Source: Nitrosococcus watsonii C-113 (GTDB lineage: Bacteria; Pseudomonadota; Gammaproteobacteria; Nitrosococcales; Nitrosococcaceae). Taken from it: a DNA stretch of 64,000 nucleotides. Where the stretch lies: positions 1,487,001 through 1,551,000 of the forward strand of contig NC_014315.1 in the NCBI RefSeq assembly GCF_000143085.1, read 5' to 3'. Positions 3,363 through 54,974 of this stretch are shown here, piece by piece. The position numbers and the translations under genes are program-made. The notes beneath the pieces were generated by a model that saw only the letters and a list, made by a program, of their open reading frames with translations, did not search any database and was not told the DNA's origin. Position 1 is the stretch's first letter. Each line of letters opens with the position of its first letter.

Positions 3363-3780
3363 TTAGTGCCCGTACCCGCCGCCACTGCTACTTCCACTTC
3401 CATGTTGTTCATGATCCATGCCGCCTCCATGCTCTGCTTTCGCGGCAGCTTCCAAATGTTTTATGCCTTCATTGATATGTTGCGTAGCGGAATCGGCGTT
3501 GCCTTCCTTGCTCTCCTTAATTCCTAGCTCTAAATGCTCAATGGCTACGTCGAGATGTTCTTTTTCCTCGCCTTTAGCCTCCTTTTCAGCAGCCTTGGCA
3601 TGCTCTAAAGCTTTTTCTGCATGCTCTGTGATTGCTTCTGCCTGCCCGTCTTTACCGGAGGCGACGGCCATACCGGCATGCTCTAGCGCTTTGCCTAAGT
3701 GATCGCTTGCTTGGGCCATACCGCTTGCCGCGAGGATTTAACGCGCATGCCATTAACACGGTAGTTAATTTGTATTTCAT
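3363..3780 (-). pseudogene. smbP: SmbP-like small metal-binding protein with frameshifted signal peptide
   Basis: The open frame from ATG 3719 encodes 118 residues of short histidine-bearing helical repeats (HLGKALEHAG, HAEKALEHAKAAEK, HLDVAIEHLELG, HINEGIKHLEAA) and a Gly/Ser/His tail ending GGGYGH. This resembles the periplasmic SmbP metal-binding protein described from Nitrosomonas. ATG 3780, with AAGGAG about eleven bases upstream, opens a signal peptide start (MKYKLTTVLMACAL). Reading one A fewer in the run at 3737-3739 continues it as ILAASGMAQA and joins it in frame to SDHLGK. So either a one-base insertion has broken export or there is a sequencing error. Without the repair the product starting at 3719 would stay cytoplasmic. 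Confidence 0.75.
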
Positions 3781-3999
3781 TTCTTTGTATTCTCCTTCAG
3801 TGGTTTTGGGTCAATTTGTTTTTTCTAGCCCTTCGTATTTTCCCGCTTTTTTATGTACGCCCTAAGTTTGAAATAGGCAACGAAAGACAGAGTCAGATCT
3901 AGCAGGGAGAAGGCAAGCTGTCAAGGAGATTCGCTTTCTTAACTCGCTGCCTAAGAGGTGTTGTTGTGTCAAAAAAAAACCAAAGGAAGCAGAAGCCTG

Positions 4000-43565: not shown

Positions 43566-43642
43566 GTCCCCATCGTCTAGACGGCCTAGGACACCGCCCT
43601 TTCACGGCGGTAACAGGGGTTCGAATCCCCTTGGGGACGCCA
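43566..43642 (+). tRNA. tRNA-Glu(TTC)
   Basis: Acceptor GTCCCCA pairs with TGGGGAC, the anticodon stem CCGCC/GGCGG encloses CTTTCAC with anticodon TTC, and the T arm is CAGGGGTTCGAATCCCCTT. CCA is encoded at 43640-43642. It is the second gene of the tRNA pair driven from the promoter at 43395. Confidence 0.96.
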
Positions 43643-43983
43643 CTTCAACGGCGCAGGAGAAATCTTGCGGTGCAGTACCCTGCTACTGACAATGAGCCAC
43701 CACCCTACCATCAGCTCGATTACGTGGTCGGCGGTCCTCCATAGCCAGGCACCAAGAATGGCGGCAGTAAAACTAAAACAAAACACTCCTTCCAGCCAAC
43801 GCCTATTAGGGAACAGCCGCGTTGATAGGATACTTATCCAGCGCAGTATTCTAGACAGCAACACAATCAATAAAATAGCTTCCATAAGCAATATTCTGAC
43901 ACTCATAAAATCCAAGATAACCAGAAGCGAAGTCTACGAAATGGCTATCGTATTAGAAATGCTCTCTGGGAAAGCATGCCCCT
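43643..43983. other. Region between tRNA-Glu and the CRISPR array
   Basis: About 340 bases. A minus-strand frame (43915 to 43586) encodes hydrophobic helices in its first ~90 codons, but its last 18 codons are the antisense of tRNA-Glu and it has no clear ribosome site. It may be a gene remnant or chance. No further CRISPR repeats, terminator or other RNA is visible. Confidence 0.4.
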
Positions 43984-44073
43984 CGGTTCATCCCCACGCC
44001 TGTGGGGAACGGGGGGAAGTAGAAGTGATGGAAACCGATGATCTCGGTTCATCCCCACGCCTGTGGGGAACGG
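43984..44073 (-). CRISPR. Minimal type I-E CRISPR array: two repeats, one spacer
   Basis: Two identical 29-base repeats at 43984-44012 and 44045-44073 enclose one 32-base spacer (44013-44044). On the minus strand the repeat reads CCGTTCCCCACAGGCGTGGG then GATGAACCG, the type I-E form with a CCCCAC/GTGGGG stem and an ATGAACCG end. The 61-base repeat-to-repeat period is standard for I-E. It lies beyond cas2 in the same direction as the cas genes, with the leader on the cas2 side. No degenerate repeats were found beyond 43984, so the array has either collapsed or never grown. Confidence 0.9.
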
Positions 44074-44189
44074 ACTTATTCTAACTTTTTGTTAAATAAA
44101 ACAAAAAGTGGTTCTTAAATTTCCACCGAGAAATTGACTGAACCGATAAGCCTTTTCGATAGTGTAGCAGTTCTTTTAATTCCTTATTT
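44074..44189 (-). promoter_or_regulatory. CRISPR leader
   Basis: A 116-base AT-rich stretch between the cas2 stop and the first repeat, the normal I-E leader position. It includes a self-complementary ACTTTTTGTTAAATAAAACAAAAAGT-type hairpin (44083-44109). The array promoter and any IHF site should lie here; I could not fix either by eye. Confidence 0.6.
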
Positions 44190-45384
<1,195 letters not shown>

Positions 45385-45387
45385 GGG

Positions 45388-45990
45388 TTAAATCCTCGCC
45401 AGACTCAAAAGACCACAGCCAAAAGCTTTGGCGGGGCCAATTCCCGTTTGGATCAACGCCGCCAAAACACGGGGATTAACTACCTGGAAGACCCCATCAA
45501 AGGTAACGGTCACCAATTTACCAGCCTTGCCATTTTTTCTAAAATATAAGGGTGGCCGCAGCGTTGGGATAACGCTCTCTAACATTGCAGCCCCACTCAG
45601 CTTGCGTGATAACCATGCTTCTTGCTGTTCCTCCTGTAGCAACGGCACCCGGCATGACTTCACCACCCCTTTCCGATTTAGCCGGCCTTCACCGTCGCGA
45701 ATGGTTTTGATGGGATTGGCGATAAGCCGGAAGCGCAAAAACTGGCCACTATGCAGGGAAAGTGGATAGTCCCGGCGAGCTACGACTCTAATACCTGCGG
45801 CCGCCTCCCCTGGGGCTGCTTCTGATTGCAGCAGCAATTGGACGTTTTGACCTGGTCGGGGGCATTCCATTCGAAATAAAAAACTGCGCTCGGCAACTCC
45901 CTGGCCCGGAAACAGTTGCCAGAGAGAGCGATGCCATTGATAGGGATCGCGGGCATAGCGCCAGTCGATTTCAATCTTGCTCAGGTACAT
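45388..45990 (-). CDS. cas6e: CRISPR pre-crRNA endoribonuclease Cas6e (CasE/Cse3)
   Basis: Cleaves repeat RNA and stays bound to the 3' hairpin of crRNA. ATG 45990 is the start: MYLSKIEIDWRYARDPYQWHR matches Cas6e N termini, and it overlaps the end of cas5 by 20 bases. The histidine of QWHRSLWQLFPG is the probable general base. The C terminus IGPAKAFGCGLLSLARI is the glycine-rich loop. Length 200 is usual. The frame is open. Confidence 0.93.
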   Translation of the reverse strand: MYLSKIEIDWRYARDPYQWHRSLWQLFPGQGVAERSFLFRMECPRPGQNVQLLLQSEAAPGEAAAGIRVVARRDYPLSLHSGQFLRFRLIANPIKTIRDGEGRLNRKGVVKSCRVPLLQEEQQEAWLSRKLSGAAMLESVIPTLRPPLYFRKNGKAGKLVTVTFDGVFQVVNPRVLAALIQTGIGPAKAFGCGLLSLARI

Positions 45991-46639
45991 GGCTTTCCCC
46001 TCGGCTACTGGAGTGGATATAGGCCCGTCGACTAGCAAACTGTCGGGGCCGAACGATGATGGGCTCATCCCGAAGGCGCAATTGCGGTAACTCAGCTTCC
46101 CCTTCCTCGCTATAGATCACGCCGCCTAAGGGTTCGACGAGACTTAAGGCAGCAAGACTATCAGCCGCCTCAACGACGGCTTCGAACAACGGTCGCTGCA
46201 AAGGACAACTGCGCCGGCCTAGATAAGGCGTAAACACTGGTTGCTGCACTGCCTGAATCAGCGCAGCCAAGGGAATAGGGGCTGCCGCCGCTGCTTTCAC
46301 GGCGACCGTGAAGGAAGCGTCACACAGGTATTCCCGCCGGGAGACCACGGGATAGTGGCTAATTTTTCCCCCAACCTTGCGGGCATCGAGAACCGTATGA
46401 AAATCGGCCAGCTTAACGGGAGAGAAGGTGCGCTCATCTGCCCGCACGGAAAAGCGTATACTCTGGGCCAAGGCTAATTGCCCGGCCTCGTCGTCCCGGC
46501 GCAGGCCCAGGCAGGCCCCCAGCAACCCCAGCAATCCACTACGGCTAGGAAAGTTCAAGCTTGGGCGGTAAACCTCATAGGTATGGCTGCCCCAAGCTTG
46601 CATCATGCCGGCAAGCTTTAGCATTAAAAAGGATTGCAT
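45971..46639 (-). CDS. cas5: Cascade subunit Cas5e (CasD)
   Basis: A 222-residue RAMP protein that caps the 5' handle of crRNA. LMLKLAGMMQAWGSHTYEVYR and PSRSGLLGLLGACLGLRRDD are the Cas5e N-terminal signature, with SRREYLCDASFTVAV and PVFTPYLGRRSCPLQRPLF following. The frame is intact. It starts nine bases after cas7 and overlaps cas6e. Confidence 0.95.
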   Translation of the reverse strand: MQSFLMLKLAGMMQAWGSHTYEVYRPSLNFPSRSGLLGLLGACLGLRRDDEAGQLALAQSIRFSVRADERTFSPVKLADFHTVLDARKVGGKISHYPVVSRREYLCDASFTVAVKAAAAAPIPLAALIQAVQQPVFTPYLGRRSCPLQRPLFEAVVEAADSLAALSLVEPLGGVIYSEEGEAELPQLRLRDEPIIVRPRQFASRRAYIHSSSRGESHVPEQD

Positions 46640-46648
46640 GCTGGCCTC

Positions 46649-47752
46649 CTAGGAAAGCGGGTTTCCATGCCTCACCCAATCGGCCAATCCTGCCAGAGTA
46701 TCATGGTATGCCATCTTCTCTGGCAGGGTGCCGGGGCTGGCCAGGGTAAACAAGGCCGCCTGCTCATCTAGTCCGTACCCGCGATGCATCTGTTGCCAAT
46801 ATTGCAATAATTTATCCACCGAGGGTTCCTTGAAACCGCCCGCCTTACCCTTTTGCACGGGAGCCTCGAAGGCGTTGGCGAGCGATACCGGGATATCGGC
46901 GAAACTCACCAGGACGCAATCAGCCAGATTATGGGCAGCAAAGCTCTGCTGTTTGGCGGACGGCACCACCGTGGCTAGCAGATGGGCCAAATGCTTAGCG
47001 ATCTCCAGTGCCCGCTCCCGTGGAGTACCGCCAAGATTTTCCTGTAATTGCTGGATATTCAAGCTGGCATAGCGGTAAAAAACTCCACTGGAAAACTCTT
47101 GGGTATTGAGATGCCCCGCCCCTATCTCACCGGCATCGGCTACGAGATCATCCACGGCAGTAAACCAGTCGATGTCGCTGTCCACGGCATGGGTAGTCAT
47201 GGCATGGGCCACCGCCAGAGCGCCATCCACTGGCGTCATAATCCCCGAGGTGGTCATGCGCCCGGAAAGGGCGATGTCAAGCCCTTGGGAAGTTGCCGCG
47301 CGGAATTCGGCGGATTCTTTAGCAATTTTTTTAGCGAGTTTTTTATTGTCAAATCCTTCTTCAGTCTCGCCCATCTTGATCGCCTCGCAGTATTTAGCCA
47401 CTTCGGCGACCACCCAGGGCGCAACCGCGTCAGCTTCCGTATCATCAGCAATGCCTTCCTTGTCCGATAGCCATTGAATAGCTTTGATGACCAAGTCCTG
47501 GGAATAACGATCCTCCAATTCATGAACGCACTTTTTAGTAAACCGGCCCAGCTCTCGAGTCCTCACCGAGGGTTTTCCCAGGTATTCCCGATAGTAATCA
47601 CTATGGCGGATAGCCCGTTTCAGGCTTTGGCTGGAGATACGCACCCGCCGCACGCCACCAAAAACCGCGGATTTTTGCATGTTCATGTCATCCCGGTTGA
47701 GGCAAGAAGGGCTGTGGGAGATCAGCACATGGAAATTAATAAAATTTTTCAT
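46649..47752 (-). CDS. cas7: Cascade backbone subunit Cas7e (CasC/Cse4)
   Basis: Backbone RAMP of Cascade, six copies along the crRNA. FINFHVLISHSPSCLNRDDM and VFGGVRRVRISSQSLKRAIR are diagnostic of the Cse4/CasC family. The body continues with GRMTTSGIMTPVDGALAVAH and ends in a normal C-terminal domain. Length 367 is typical and the frame is open. It starts 29 bases after cse2. Confidence 0.95.
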   Translation of the reverse strand: MKNFINFHVLISHSPSCLNRDDMNMQKSAVFGGVRRVRISSQSLKRAIRHSDYYREYLGKPSVRTRELGRFTKKCVHELEDRYSQDLVIKAIQWLSDKEGIADDTEADAVAPWVVAEVAKYCEAIKMGETEEGFDNKKLAKKIAKESAEFRAATSQGLDIALSGRMTTSGIMTPVDGALAVAHAMTTHAVDSDIDWFTAVDDLVADAGEIGAGHLNTQEFSSGVFYRYASLNIQQLQENLGGTPRERALEIAKHLAHLLATVVPSAKQQSFAAHNLADCVLVSFADIPVSLANAFEAPVQKGKAGGFKEPSVDKLLQYWQQMHRGYGLDEQAALFTLASPGTLPEKMAYHDTLAGLADWVRHGNPLS

Positions 47753-47781
47753 TACCTATTACTCTTCGCATTATGGGCTTA

Positions 47782-48222
47782 TCAGGCCGCGGATTCACCG
47801 CTATGGACAAGGTAAAACTCTTCCAGCAGGCGGCGCTTGTCCTCTGGCCGCCAAAAATAGAGTTGCCAGCCAAATCGCTGCCAATTCACTGTAGGCTCTA
47901 CCTGTTGTAGTAAACGGCGCAGCTGGAGGAGATCATTAGGAGAAGTGCTGCGAATGACCTGGAACAGGCGTTGCTCATGGATACGGTGCTTTGCCAATTG
48001 CGCTCCCAAGGGGAGCGCCTCATGGGCATGTTTGAGCCAAGGCAGGCAAAATGCTACCCGCAGCCATTTTTCAGAGGCCCTTTGTCCTGGAAGCAGCCGG
48101 TAAAAACCAGGGATGCTGGCCAAACCTTCCGGCGAGCGCACCCGGCGCAGCTCGGCCCGTGGGCCATTAGCAAGTTGCTCGTACCTGAAGCGCAGGGCAG
48201 CGAAATCAATGGACGTCGACAT
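47782..48222 (-). CDS. cse2: Cascade small subunit Cas11e (CasB/Cse2)
   Basis: A 146-residue all-helical protein of the Cse2 family, which binds the displaced DNA strand in the R-loop. LRRVRSPEGLASIPGFYRLLP and FGWQLYFWRPEDKRRLLEEFY are family-like segments. The ATG lies inside the end of the cas8e frame (17-base overlap). The length is a little below the E. coli protein. The frame is open. Confidence 0.88.
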   Translation of the reverse strand: MSTSIDFAALRFRYEQLANGPRAELRRVRSPEGLASIPGFYRLLPGQRASEKWLRVAFCLPWLKHAHEALPLGAQLAKHRIHEQRLFQVIRSTSPNDLLQLRRLLQQVEPTVNWQRFGWQLYFWRPEDKRRLLEEFYLVHSGESAA

Positions 48223-49692
48223 GATGAGTCTCCTTTAGCTGAGCTAATTCCTTATGAAATTTCGATCTCCCGGCGGCAATGGCGTGGATCAACTCCGGAT
48301 CGTGCTGATAAGGAGCGATAGCCTCTTCGTATAGCTGTCTGGCTAGTGTTACCAGGCGAGCAATAAAAGTAGCCTTCTGCGCCTGGAAAGCGCTAACATC
48401 CAATTCCCGCAGGCTGGCATGCACCACCGGCTCGCTCAGGGCATAGAAACGGGCTTCCGCTGGTTCATGGACTTTCACTCCTAAGCCCTTGAATACGTTC
48501 TTTTGGCCTTTTACCGCCCAATACAAGCTGCCGCGCAGCAGTTGCTTGATTTCTAACCCAACCTGGACCAGCTGCGCCAGTTGCTCACCGCCTTCCTCCC
48601 ATCCGGGAGAAAAGCTGAACAGCTCATGACGGCGCTCAATAACATTGGCTTGTTTATTGCGATAGCCGCCCACCAGCAGTTGCAACCGGCGACCTCTGCC
48701 CATGCTACGCTGCCGCCGGCTGCTTACCACGGCCGCCGGAGTATGTCCCTCCTTATCGCCCGTTTTGTCGATCAGGAATTGTGTTAATCGAGTCCAGGCC
48801 GGAGCGGTAGTGGTAAAGGAGGCATAACGTTCTTCCTTCTCTCCTTTAGCCAATTTAAATAGCCGGGGGCTATGGGGAGCCAGAGACCCTTGAACTCGTA
48901 GCGGAATTTTTCTTTGTTAAAACCCGAATAGCGCCGTTCCACCTTGGCCCCACAGTGATCGCAAGCACCGCCCGACTCCGGCAGCAATTCAATGCGGGCC
49001 GGCTGCCAAAAGAGTCCCCGCAGCAGGCCAATTTGATTCCCATATAATTTTTGACCTGCCCGAATAGGCTCCACCCAAACTGGCCGGTCTGGAGTCATTC
49101 CCCCATAGAGGCATAATTCACTTTCAGGCAAAACATTTTCCCAAATACACCGGCGCAGCTTGGGGGAATCAATCAGGGTGGTGATCGGCGCGCTGCCCCG
49201 CAAGCTCCCTTTGAAGCCACCGCCGAAGCTGGGGCAATTATTGGCTTGATTAAAAATCCCGATAGCCGCGCAGCCACCGCATACTGTTTTGATTTCGCCC
49301 TCGGCATTGAAAAAAGCCTGATTATTGCCTTCAGGCAAACCAATAAAGAGCTTTTGAATCGGTGTAACCTCGGCGGCCTGTACCCCCCGCGTTTGCATGA
49401 ACGGCGTGTCCGGGTGCTCCAGATCGAACCAGTCCCGATAATCTGCAATACCCTGCTGGAATTCCGCCTCGCTCAGCGGGGTTTTAATCCGTACCCGCAA
49501 GGTCCGCTGATCAGCGGGGGTAAACAATACCTGGGTCAGGCTGACCAATAATTGCAGGCAGGCCAATTCCATATCATCCCGGGACAGCGCCAGATCCCCA
49601 TCAGCTTCCTGGCATAGCAACGCCTGGAGGTTGATTGGCCGAAAAGCTTTATCGTCCAATACCGGAATCCAAGGATCGGTGAGTAAATTCAT
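48206..49692 (-). pseudogene. cse1: Cascade large subunit Cas8e (CasA/Cse1), frameshifted
   Basis: ATG 49692 (overlapping the cas3 stop as ATGA) opens NLLTDPWIPVLDDKAFRPIN and reads to LCQE... through a Zn-like GACDHCGAKVERRYSG to FKGLW near 48880. The frame then runs to an early stop at 48784. The family continuation HSPRLFKLAKGEKEERYASF and onward to 48206 lies in another frame. One extra G at the TGG near 48879-48882 would rejoin them into about 496 residues, the normal size. Cas8e reads the PAM and recruits Cas3, so the lesion should disable interference unless it is a sequencing error or rescued by slippage; there is no long homopolymer at the site. Confidence 0.88.
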
Positions 49693-52290
49693 ATTTTTTC
49701 TCTCTCCAGGCCAAACTCCCGGCTGTAGCGGAGTCGAACCGAATCCAAAAAAACTTCCCAGATCCCTTCTTCTATCGGTTCCATAGCCAGAATATGGAGT
49801 CCAGTATCCTCGGCGGGTGGTAGCCATTGATTCCAACTACTGGGAACGGCAACGGTTTGTTGATTTAACACCTCGGCTTTCTCCCACTCGGAAAGCTGAC
49901 TGAGCAGGTCGCCATCGAGCAAAGCCAAACCATCGGCGGTATTTTGTACGGGCAACATATTCAGCTGTTGCTCGCCATCACGGGTCAATACCCGAATTTT
50001 ATTGTCCTCATCCTTAAAGGGCTTCATCCGAGTATTGACTAAACTACGGGCCGCCTGGGCTTGAGCCCATCGTTCCGCCATAAAACCGTCATAGGCTTCA
50101 AGAATACTCTCCGGCTCATCGGGCCACGCTTGCTCGGCATAAACCGATTCGATCCAGTCCCGGTAAGCTTCGGGAAAGGTCATTTGGCCATTGGCCTGCT
50201 GCAATCGCTGCTCGGTCCGCCATAACACCCGGCGGTTGGCGTAAATCACCCCATGCGGACCGTAGTCAGCGGCTTCCGGTAATAGCACCGTACAGCGAGG
50301 CTCCCCATAACCGTCAGGGCGAGGTCGGGAATGACGGTGCAGCCGTCCTAGCCGCTGGAACAAGAGATCCACCGGGCAAAGCTGGGTCACCATCCAATCG
50401 AAATCCAGATCCAGACTTTGCTCAATCACCTGGGTAGCGACCAGGATGCGTCCCTTGTCACGAAGTCCTTCCTTGCCATATTGGCTAAGCACTTGCTGTT
50501 CCTTGGCCAACCGGTCGCGAAAGCGGAACCGGGCATGAAATAGATCCACCGGCACCTGAGTCTGCGCCCGTAACTGCTTGGCAAGGCGCTGAGCATCATC
50601 CACCAGGTTGCAAATCACTGCGACCTGGGCCCCAGCAGTAGCCGCCGCGATGATATGGTAGCGCAAGCCTGCATCCGGCGAAGCGCCGGGCAAACGCAGG
50701 CAGTCCAGGCCAACAGTGCGCGGCCTGGGCATTTCCGCCTCTGCTGGACGCCATGTTTGTGGCCCTTCATTAGCCCCCAGATAAGTAACCAGGGGATAGG
50801 GGGCTTCTTCTTCAAGCGAAGCTTTCGGCTGCCAGGCAGCGGCTAATTGCTGGCGCTGAGGATAAGGCAGGGTAGCCGACAGGAGAATAGCGGAACCACC
50901 CCCCGCCCGTTGCTGGGATAGCACCGCCTCGAGTAAACCGTACATATAACTATCGTAGGCATGCACCTCATCGACGATCAGCACGCTTTTACCCACCCCA
51001 AAACCGCGCACAAACTTGTGCTTGACCGGCAGTACGCTAATGAGTACTTGATCGATAGTGCAAACTCCAATCTGCCCGAGAAATACCCGCTTGCGACTCT
51101 GGACCAGCCATTCCGCGCACTGCACCAGGGCTTCTTCACGAGCTTGGGCGGTATGGGGTCGGACCGCTTCCTTAAGGGCGATAAAATCCGGATTGTAGCG
51201 GGCCTTGCCGTGGGCTAGTACGAGGCTGGAATCGTTTTCTGGGAAAAGTATCCCAGCAATGCTCTCCAAACGTTTAAGCATGGCATTGGCGGTAGCCTGA
51301 GTGGGCAAGGCAAACACGATGCTGTCGGCAAGGCCGGCCGCCAGAAGCTTTGATGCATACGCCAGGGCTGCTTCTGTTTTACCGGAACCGGTGGGGGCTT
51401 CGATAATGGTCAACCCGGCTTCGGTCGGCAAGGACTCCACGAGAGTCTGGACTTGATGGGGGATAAAAGTTGGAAAAACAACAGGCATGCCCCCCGTGTT
51501 AGAGGTATCCGGCAGATGCCGCTGTCCTGTAGAACCCGGGCCGCGTTCTCCTGCCGTCGCTCCCAATAGAGCAACTCCTCCTCCTGCTGGTTATGGTAGG
51601 GAAAATAGCGGGGATCGCTGTTGGAGCCGAGCCAATCGCAAACCGCGCAAAACCCGGCCAGTAAAGGAGAAAGGGCCGGAGGTTGATCCTGCAAGGAGAG
51701 ACCCGCAGGGTGTAGAAACCATGCTTCCAAGCTCCTGACCCACTCCCGCCGGGCAACACGGTCCATGGCTCGGATTTCTTTAGGGATATCCGCTACATTA
51801 GGGCTCTCCACCTCCTCCGGCAGAACCCCATGATGCCCGGTAACCGCGGATAGCCAGGGTATCCATGCTTCCCCATAGTCATACCAGGCATCTTCATCCT
51901 CTCCGTCAAAGCCGATGTAGTTGGGCAACTCCGCCAAACCCCAACGGAAACCCTCGGGGCCATGCCAGTAGTTTTGAGTGGGAATCTTGAGCCATAAAGA
52001 CTCCGGCCAAGGATCGTACGTTTTCAGGCCACGTACTGCCTCTAGCGCCTTGGCCTAAAACCGCACATCGAGCTTGCCCAGATCATGCAATCCGAGGAAG
52101 AACAGTACCCAAGCCAAGAAATGCTGAGCAGTCTCGCTATTAGCGCCCCCAAGAGATCTTGTTAGTGACTGACTGCTGGCCAGGCAGAAGCTACCGCGAC
52201 CACATCCAGGGAATGGTAGACAAAAGGGTGGCAGTTATTTTCTCCTTTATCCGTGCTAGCTTGCGCTTTCCCCCAGTACTTCCACAGCAT
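49689..52290 (-). pseudogene. cas3: Cas3 helicase-nuclease with three lesions
   Basis: ATG 52290 with AAGGAG six bases upstream opens MLWKYWGKAQ...HPFVYHSLDVVAVASAW and shifts frame at about 52178-52184, where a CTGG duplicate seems lost. The next frame gives LASSQSLTRSL, then GLHDLGKLDVRF and TAG at 52055-52057 where family members have glutamine. The HD domain continues (HGPEGFRWGL, GHHGVLPEE, FCAVCDWLGS). A third change at the G6 run near 51490-51496 shifts into the helicase frame. That part is intact: EAPTGSGKTEAALAYA, DEVHAYD, SATLPYPQR and FQRLGRLHRHSR, ending at 49689. ATG 51488 could still start a helicase-only product of about 599 residues. Confidence 0.92.
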
Positions 52291-52435
52291 CACCTACTCC
52301 TTGCTTGCATTGATTGTCCAAGCTATCGGCGGAGTGCGGCAAAATAAAACCTTCTTCGGCAAGCGGGGATAGCAATACGACTAGCCAGGATTCAGGCTAA
52401 CAGCATCAGAAAAGATAGGGAACCTAGCCGGTTGC

Positions 52436-53181: not shown

Positions 53182-54101
53182 ATGCAGCAGCCACACCCAA
53201 CACGGCACCTTTTTTTCATTACGCTTCATTGGATATTGGTTCTGCTAGTCCTTGCGCTAATAGGTCTGGGAGGGTACCTCCAATACTTGCCGCCTACAGC
53301 CCCGAAGCAAGCATTTTTTGTCAATCTCCATATCTCGCTAGGATTGACAAGCATGATATTAGTCGTTTTTCAAATTTTGCTATGGCTAATATTGGGCAGA
53401 CCTCAACCTTCGGAAACTACTTCCCACTGGCAACGCGCCCTCACCCGCAATCTATACATTTTGTTTTATGCGTGCGTAATAATTTTGGGAATCAGCGGTT
53501 TTTTTCAGGCCACCGCCAGCGGCGTTTCTATTAAATTCTGGGGTCTGCCGATTCCTGTTGGGAAAGGAGAAGATGCTGATTTAGCAAAATTTTACGAGGC
53601 ATTACATGAGATTTCAGCACTTGCCTTAGTCGTCTTGGTGGTTATCTGGGTAGGCGTTATTTTGCTAAAAACCTATCAGCAAAATAAAATTTTTTATGGC
53701 AAAACACTCTCTCATAGAATCAAATCAAAAGTGGCATCACCACCTCTTTCCAAAGCAATTCTGAGATTAGTCAAAAATCTCCGTCTGCTTGGATGGATGG
53801 CTTTCTGGATACAATTCGGACTTGCAATCGCGGCCGCGTTACTATTGCTTTTTACTACCTCAGGCCAATCCCTTTCTCCAAACGAACTGAGTAGCGGCCT
53901 TACTTGGGCGGTTTATGATTTTATTATCCTTTGTTTAACTACCCTCTTTTTCTTTTATTATACCCGGCTGGCTAAAAAAATTACTTTGGAGCCGGATCAT
54001 TATATTAATCTGAAAAAAAAATCCTCTCCCTGGTTTTTAAGACTCAGCTATAAAACCAGCCTGCTGGGAATGCTTGTTAGTTTCATTGGTATTGGCACGA
54101 G
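53182..54101 (+). pseudogene. 5' fragment of cytochrome b561-DUF3611 fusion gene, cut by IS1
   Basis: About 306 codons remain. Residues ~8-175 form a four-helix di-haem cytochrome b561-like unit with histidines in ITLHWILVLLVLALIG, FFVNLHISLGLTSMILVVFQ and YEALHEISALALVVLVV. From ~190 a DUF3611 domain begins (LGWMAFWIQFGLAIAAALLL). The gene is cut by IS1 copy B at 54101. Its missing last 79 codons are at 33441-33678 on the other strand. The eight bases GGCACGAG are present at both breaks. In the present genome the frame runs 75 codons into antisense IS1 and ends at 54327. Confidence 0.9.
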
Positions 54102-54974
54102 GGTAGTGTTCCAGATCTGGAGGTTCCAAGTTTACACTTGCACACCAAATTCATATCGATTAATAAAAAGCCCAATGACAATATCATGCATTTGGCGTGT
54201 TTTGGAAAAGCAGATCGTTTTGCGTGCCAATCGTTTAATGCGGGTGCGCAAGGTGAGATGTTTTCTTTCTATTTTTTGGGTATGTTGTTTGCCGATGTGG
54301 TGTCTCTTACTGTCCAGATGGCGCTGATACGTGCCCCAGTCATCGGTATAAAAATGGGTGATTCCAAAAGGTTCAAGAAGTCTTTTGAGTTTCAAAAAGA
54401 CGGTATCTTGATGGGTTCCCAAAACGTAGGCCAGCACCTGCCCACTGCGATGATCGATGGCATGCCACAACCAGCGTGGGTTAGTTTTCTTTCCCACAAA
54501 ACTCCACATTTCATCGACTTCCGCTTCCTCAACCCGCAACACCTGCACTTCTACCTGCTCTGCAGGCAAACGCTTCAACAGCGCGGGGTTGACCGACTCA
54601 AGACGGGACTCTTTTTTTTTAGCTCCTTGAGCACCGTGTGGGGACTGATCTCTAAAACCCGCGCCGTATCTCGTATCCCACTCCCGTTCAGCGTCATCTC
54701 GATAATCTGCTGCTTGACTTGTGGCAAACGACCCTTATACACATAATCCAAGCGAAAGGAGCGATGGGCGCAGGCTTCATTCTGGCATAAATAACGCTGC
54801 TCTCCGCTCTCACTCCTTCCCCTTTTGACTACTCGATCGCTTTGGCAATAGGGACAATGCACGGGGAGAAGCACCATCGGAGCCTCCTGTTTTTTCTTCT
54901 TTGAGTTCATTGGATGAGCTGATAGGCTTAGCCTAGCATTAATTTAATAAATTCTCCTAATTTAAAACACGACC
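54102..54974 (-). mobile_element. IS1-family element, copy B (873 bp)
   Basis: Same length, ends and proteins as copy A, in the opposite orientation. The left end starts GGTAGTGTTCC and the right end finishes AACACGACC. Flanks are GGCACGAG on the left (54094-54101) and GGAGATTTT on the right (54975-54983). These differ from each other but match the flanks of copy A in reverse complement. So this is one partner of an IS-mediated inversion, not one arm of a compound transposon. Confidence 0.92.
54132..54910 (-). CDS. IS1-family transposase InsAB' (frameshifted), copy B
   Basis: Identical in both frames to copy A: InsA from 54910 to 54575 and InsB to 54132, with the A9 slip site near 54612-54620 (T9 on the plus strand). 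The DDE residues are present. Having two identical, apparently intact copies implies recent transposition or gene conversion. Confidence 0.9.

Follow-up and report, generated by a model that had tools for sequence, protein, structure and literature searches.

Does the type I-E CRISPR-Cas locus of Nitrosococcus watsonii C-113 still encode the means to cut target DNA? The locus lies in an analysed stretch of 64,000 nucleotides (here called the window; positions 1487001-1551000 of the largest contig, which has 3,328,570 bases in a genome of 3.37 Mb and three contigs), where it occupies 52290 to 43982 of the minus strand in the order cas3, cas8e, cse2, cas7, cas5, cas6e, cas1, cas2 and a two-repeat array (Table 1). 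A first-pass annotation of this DNA had described the I-E cas3 as inactivated by three separate lesions. By comparison with 38 relatives taken from genome contigs, against which the lesions were sized, all three were found to be present. The earlier reading of cas3 is supported and at the same time incomplete, as cas8e and the only other cas3 of the genome, which belongs to a type I-F system, also read as broken.

Table 1. Features of the type I-E locus, in window positions, and the CreR-like element of the type I-F locus, in the coordinates of the named loci.
Feature	Position	Strand	Remarks
Type I-E cas3 pseudogene, whole extent	49689..52290	-	pieces match NCBIfam PRK09694 (Cas3) in order
cas3 first open piece	52162..52290	-	ATG 52290, 42 aa then TAA; holds no more of the HD domain than its first segment (YH motif)
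cas3 lesion 1, frameshift	52175..52179	-	5 nt (CCAGC) between conserved Trp and Ser codons; relatives 9 nt; net loss 4
cas3 lesion 2, TAG	52055..52057	-	replaces Gln after HDxGKxDxRF; Gln in 38/38 relatives
cas3 lesion 3	51489..51517	-	29 nt, against 30 in relatives sharing the GGM motif; net loss 1, placement ambiguous
cas3 helicase half	49689..51488	-	internal ATG 51488, open, 599 aa; Walker A and DEVHAYD retained, HD nuclease absent
cas8e/cse1 pseudogene	48206..49692	-	N part 48784-49692, C part 48206-48853, different frames
Lesion 4 (cas8e), frameshift	48875..48879	-	5 nt between Trp and His codons; relatives 9 nt
cse2, apparently intact	47782..48222	-	146 aa; TIGR02548
cas7e, intact	46649..47752	-	367 aa; TIGR01869, E 1.1e-98
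cas5e, intact	45971..46639	-	222 aa; TIGR01868
cas6e, intact	45388..45990	-	200 aa; TIGR01907
cas1e, intact	44470..45384	-	304 aa; TIGR03638, E 3.9e-113
cas2e, intact	44190..44495	-	101 aa; TIGR01873
Minimal CRISPR array	43982..44073	-	one 32-nt spacer (AGATCATCGGTTTCCATCACTTCTACTTCCCC) between two identical repeats
CreR-like element, cas1/cas8f intergenic	L059:10918-11018	-	congener loci L064:11639-11739, L065:11578-11678

In a profile search, PRK09694 matched the middle piece of cas3 with an E value of 1.8e-38 and the helicase piece with one of 1.7e-243. The motifs of the HD nuclease and the SF2 helicase (HDxGK, GHHG, Walker A and DEVH) were all detected, scattered over separate pieces, and a single open frame linking the two domains is absent, with two frameshifts and a TAG codon in the way. 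Every one of the 38 relatives carries cas3 as one uninterrupted frame of about 855-957 aa, which excludes chance or family-wide frameshifting of the gene as the source of these breaks.

The frame opened by ATG 52290 reads MLWKYWGKAQ...VASAWPAVSH and then stops, and a different frame takes up the family sequence (SSQSLTRS...HFLAWVLFFLGLHDLGKLDVRF). The motif at this first break was readable in 33 of the 38 relatives, where three residues (9 nt) separate the conserved W and S. Loss of a CTGG duplicate near 52180 had been proposed here; the net shortfall of 4 nt stands (5 nt against 9), whereas CTGG as the identity of the missing bases is a plausible guess and not a unique one. The TAG reported at 52055, just after HDLGKLDVRF, does replace an expected glutamine, the residue found in all of the relatives. 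For the third lesion, relatives with the GGM motif have 10 residues (30 nt) from a conserved 'xG' to M. The one-base loss placed in a G6 run near 51493 therefore holds as a shortfall of 1 nt, whereas its assignment to the run is plausible but not unique, since a base missing from the G6 run or just upstream of it would fit equally (...CTAACACGGGGGG...). Comparison with the relatives also bore out that family-like sequence continues after each lesion. The helicase half does have an open frame beginning at ATG 51488.

The gene directly after cas3, cas8e, carries a lesion that the first-pass annotation did not contain. Positions 1-280 of the PRK09693 profile matched its N part (at 48787-49692) and positions 289-495 its C part (at 48209-48853), in another frame. 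At the junction most relatives read W-x-H-P-(H/L), with 9 nt separating the Trp and the last codon, where only 5 nt are found here; the relatives have cas8e in one frame, some of them clipped by contig ends. The intact Cas8e (Cse1) large subunit expected of a functional I-E Cascade is thus missing from the locus. In the I-E system of E. coli, Cas8e recognises the PAM and recruits Cas3. With cas8e frameshifted besides cas3, interference would be broken at two steps, targeting and cutting.

The other six genes (cse2, cas7, cas5, cas6e, cas1 and cas2) gave family matches over the curated cut-offs and cover their relatives nearly end to end, and the NCBIfam matches place cse1/cas8e (in two frames), cse2, cas7e, cas5e and cas6e in the I-E order. 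The array has the smallest size possible, its repeats lying 61 nt apart as in arrays with repeats of about 29 nt and a 61-nt period. A search of the genome that allowed up to 3 mismatches found no further I-E repeat. The spacer gave no convincing match among phages (the best, in Erwinia phages, covered 26 nt at 92%, E 0.02) or among plasmids and viral contigs.

The second system, of type I-F, occupies a locus (L059) at about 3,063-3,073 kb, 1.5 Mb from the I-E locus. Relative to the congeners G002 (an N. oceani-like genome) and G001, in which I-F cas2-3 is intact (open frames of 1184 and 1177 aa, respectively), the gene is split here into two frames by a single additional C some eight codons past GSGKT (Walker A; L059:8511-8580, minus strand, about 3,065,500 on the largest contig). 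The DNA aligned with G002 is 94.6% identical over 5.2 kb, and the other indels in the gene keep the frame overall. A third, intact cas3 was not found in the genome, where the other helicase-core matches were weak and below the family cut-off; as assembled, the genome is without an intact Cas3, the I-E and I-F copies both being broken. No convincing match to the I-F array was found among phages.

Between the divergent I-F cas1 and cas8f genes, two degenerate I-F repeats lie 73 nt apart in this genome, G001 and G002. The guide that they flank follows a TTAGAAA handle, and its target site, with a 5'-CC PAM, lies within the cas8f promoter. Guide and target match at 10 of 10 seed positions (1-5 and 7-11, according to the seed rule of PMC8501985) in all three Nitrosococcus genomes, and they change together: at base 1, guide and target alike have A in G002 and G in the other two. 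With a repeat-flanked guide, a seed match and a PAM at its own cas promoter, the intergenic element looks, by its anatomy, like a putative autorepressor of the CreR type (reviewed in PMC12737573). A literature search, in which CreTA with Nitrosococcus was the only direct query, found no paper on a CreR-like element of this genus.

The I-E island is flanked by tRNA-Glu (window 43566-43642) and a gene for a 190-aa protein that we take to be DUF4124-like. In G001 the island site (window 43643-52435) is empty, the flanks being adjacent and their aligned parts some 270 bp from each other, and in G002 the same site holds a 6.5-kb block of apparent lipid-metabolism genes; the interval has the look of a hotspot for insertions. 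Three congeners are without an I-E cas3. Most near-invariant positions are kept in the broken genes, with changes at 2 of 55 such columns in the HD part, 2 of 178 in the helicase and 4 of 79 in cas8e, which fits a recent loss, although the counts for the HD part and cas8e are somewhat higher than in the mean relative (2 against 0.45 for the HD part, 4 against 1.46 for cas8e). Elsewhere in the window, the ORF list shows an IS1-like transposase pair (54132-54910, minus strand) abutting a cytochrome b561-like gene (53182-54327, plus strand) at the 3' end of that gene, whose reading frame extends into the pair.

We consider it very probable, on the genomic comparisons, that the locus is a horizontally acquired I-E system in a tRNA-Glu-adjacent hotspot that has recently lost interference and is decaying. 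The system would have arrived there by horizontal transfer, and we infer that interference is absent, that the decay is recent and that the lesions arose by neutral decay under relaxed selection. Translation from ATG 52290 would yield only the 42-aa peptide. A frameshift separates the HDLGK motif from the YH motif before it, and the TAG separates it from GHHG and DWLGS, such that the HD nuclease site falls on three pieces (YH..., HDLGK and GHHG...DWLGS), none with a whole HD domain. The start at ATG 51488 could give the helicase half without the nuclease, in which case no target DNA would be cut, and the frameshift in cas8e would deprive that protein of its C-terminal part. At most, the cell would make the Cas3 helicase half, a Cse2-Cas7-Cas5-Cas6e backbone and Cas1-Cas2. 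Two observations count against this reading: of the five lesions that the I-E and I-F systems have between them, three may be indels of a single base, the type of sequencing error met most often, and the remaining cas genes have stayed intact, so that some function might be retained as opposed to plain decay.

Retained function is the core of an alternative that we regard as unlikely, namely that DNA cutting was lost selectively and the rest was kept for a non-cutting role, in regulation or in adaptation only. Both cas3 genes are gone, while the adaptation genes and the whole I-F Cascade are open. The I-F cas1, cas8f, cas5f, cas7f and cas6f genes have dN/dS values of 0.11-0.25 against N. oceani, indicating purifying constraint, and the conserved CreR-like guide points to the cas8f promoter; Cascade-based repression is independent of Cas3 (PMC8501985). 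However, the dN/dS values mostly record the time before the lesion, the I-E cas8e is also broken, so that target binding by the I-E Cascade is not to be assumed, and no degenerate I-E repeats that might signal a CreA or CreR guide were found outside the array with up to 9 mismatches. By a hand estimate, moreover, four lesions would fall in the promoter-proximal half of the operon by chance in about 5% of cases, which is not very unlikely. As a clock for the I-F lesion dN/dS was not decisive, the C part of cas2-3 giving 0.25 but cas8f and cas5f giving 0.25 as well. A bolder form, in which the strain turned Cas3-free under selection and kept Cas1-Cas2 uptake and a self-wired I-F Cascade with its CreR-like guide for regulation or memory without killing, seems to us doubtful.

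Sequencing or assembly error, with the genes intact in the organism, is a markedly improbable explanation. It draws on the position of lesion 3 at a G6 run, of the cas8e lesion beside C runs and on the single extra C of the I-F lesion. As a control, we took those G002 ORFs that reach 150 aa or more and have an orthologue in the sampled sequence of this genome (n = 44, about 50 kb of coding DNA). Two of the orthologues are disrupted, I-F cas3 and a small gene; with I-F cas3 set aside, 42 of 43 are intact, and a third flagged orthologue differs at its last codons only. The small gene, secreted and smbP-like, lies at about 3700-3820 of the window (minus strand); set against its orthologue in G002, it has a frameshift near 3748. 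This one unrelated frameshift is again what error would produce; however, a single broken gene among 43 other orthologues means that general sequence error does not account for lesions concentrated in cas3 and cas8e, and against a background of about one lesion per 50 kb the Poisson probability of four in about 4.1 kb is about 2e-6 (hand calculation). The nonsense substitution at an invariant Gln and the 4-nt loss are, in addition, atypical of homopolymer error, so cas3 is broken even if the G-run indel is an artefact. The earlier view that three lesions make sequencing error an unlikely full explanation is upheld.

Self-targeting spacers are a known route to CRISPR inactivation and could have selected for loss of Cas3. 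For this genome autoimmunity is highly improbable: the I-E spacer matches nothing else in the genome at up to 3 mismatches, the I-F array has no spacer-length match elsewhere in it, and self-targeting by either was rejected. That the pieces cooperate, through recoding (TAG readthrough and programmed frameshifts) or as split Cas3'/Cas3'' subunits, is barely conceivable even with the helicase half open from its own ATG, since two frameshifts and a stop would need bypassing, the HD residues lie on three pieces and none of the 38 relatives has a split cas3.

With two near-complete type I CRISPR loci, a genome would normally be rated CRISPR-immune; this one has a sequence without an intact Cas3. 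If the lesions are real, the two independent losses would offer a test case for whether Cas3, the costly part, goes first while Cascade and the genes for adaptation are kept. CRISPR loci commonly become pseudogenes, so the find matters chiefly at the level of annotation. Decay of the I-E locus is ordinary; what is unusual is that one genome has lost both of its cas3 genes. No paper describing the N. watsonii I-E locus was found in a literature search.

Set beside the type I-E arrangement (cas3-cse1-cse2-cas7-cas5-cas6e-cas1-cas2), the locus is alike in gene order, in its eight families, in the 61-nt period and in an array adjoining cas2, and differs in that cas3 and cas8e are pseudogenes and the array is down to one spacer. 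The type I-F locus of N. oceani has been described (PMC7285500), and the N part of the I-F cas2-3 is 98% identical in protein to its N. oceani counterpart; the gene is a single frame in G002, whereas here the extra C splits it just after Walker A. Degenerate I-E loci with a cleaved cas3 or a frameshifted cse1 have been reported in Corynebacterium striatum isolates (PMC9944170), of which the present locus is another instance. Both share a frame-disrupted cas3 or cse1 in an otherwise recognisable locus, but the C. striatum lesions differ between isolates, whereas in N. watsonii both genes and a second, I-F cas3 are broken in one genome.
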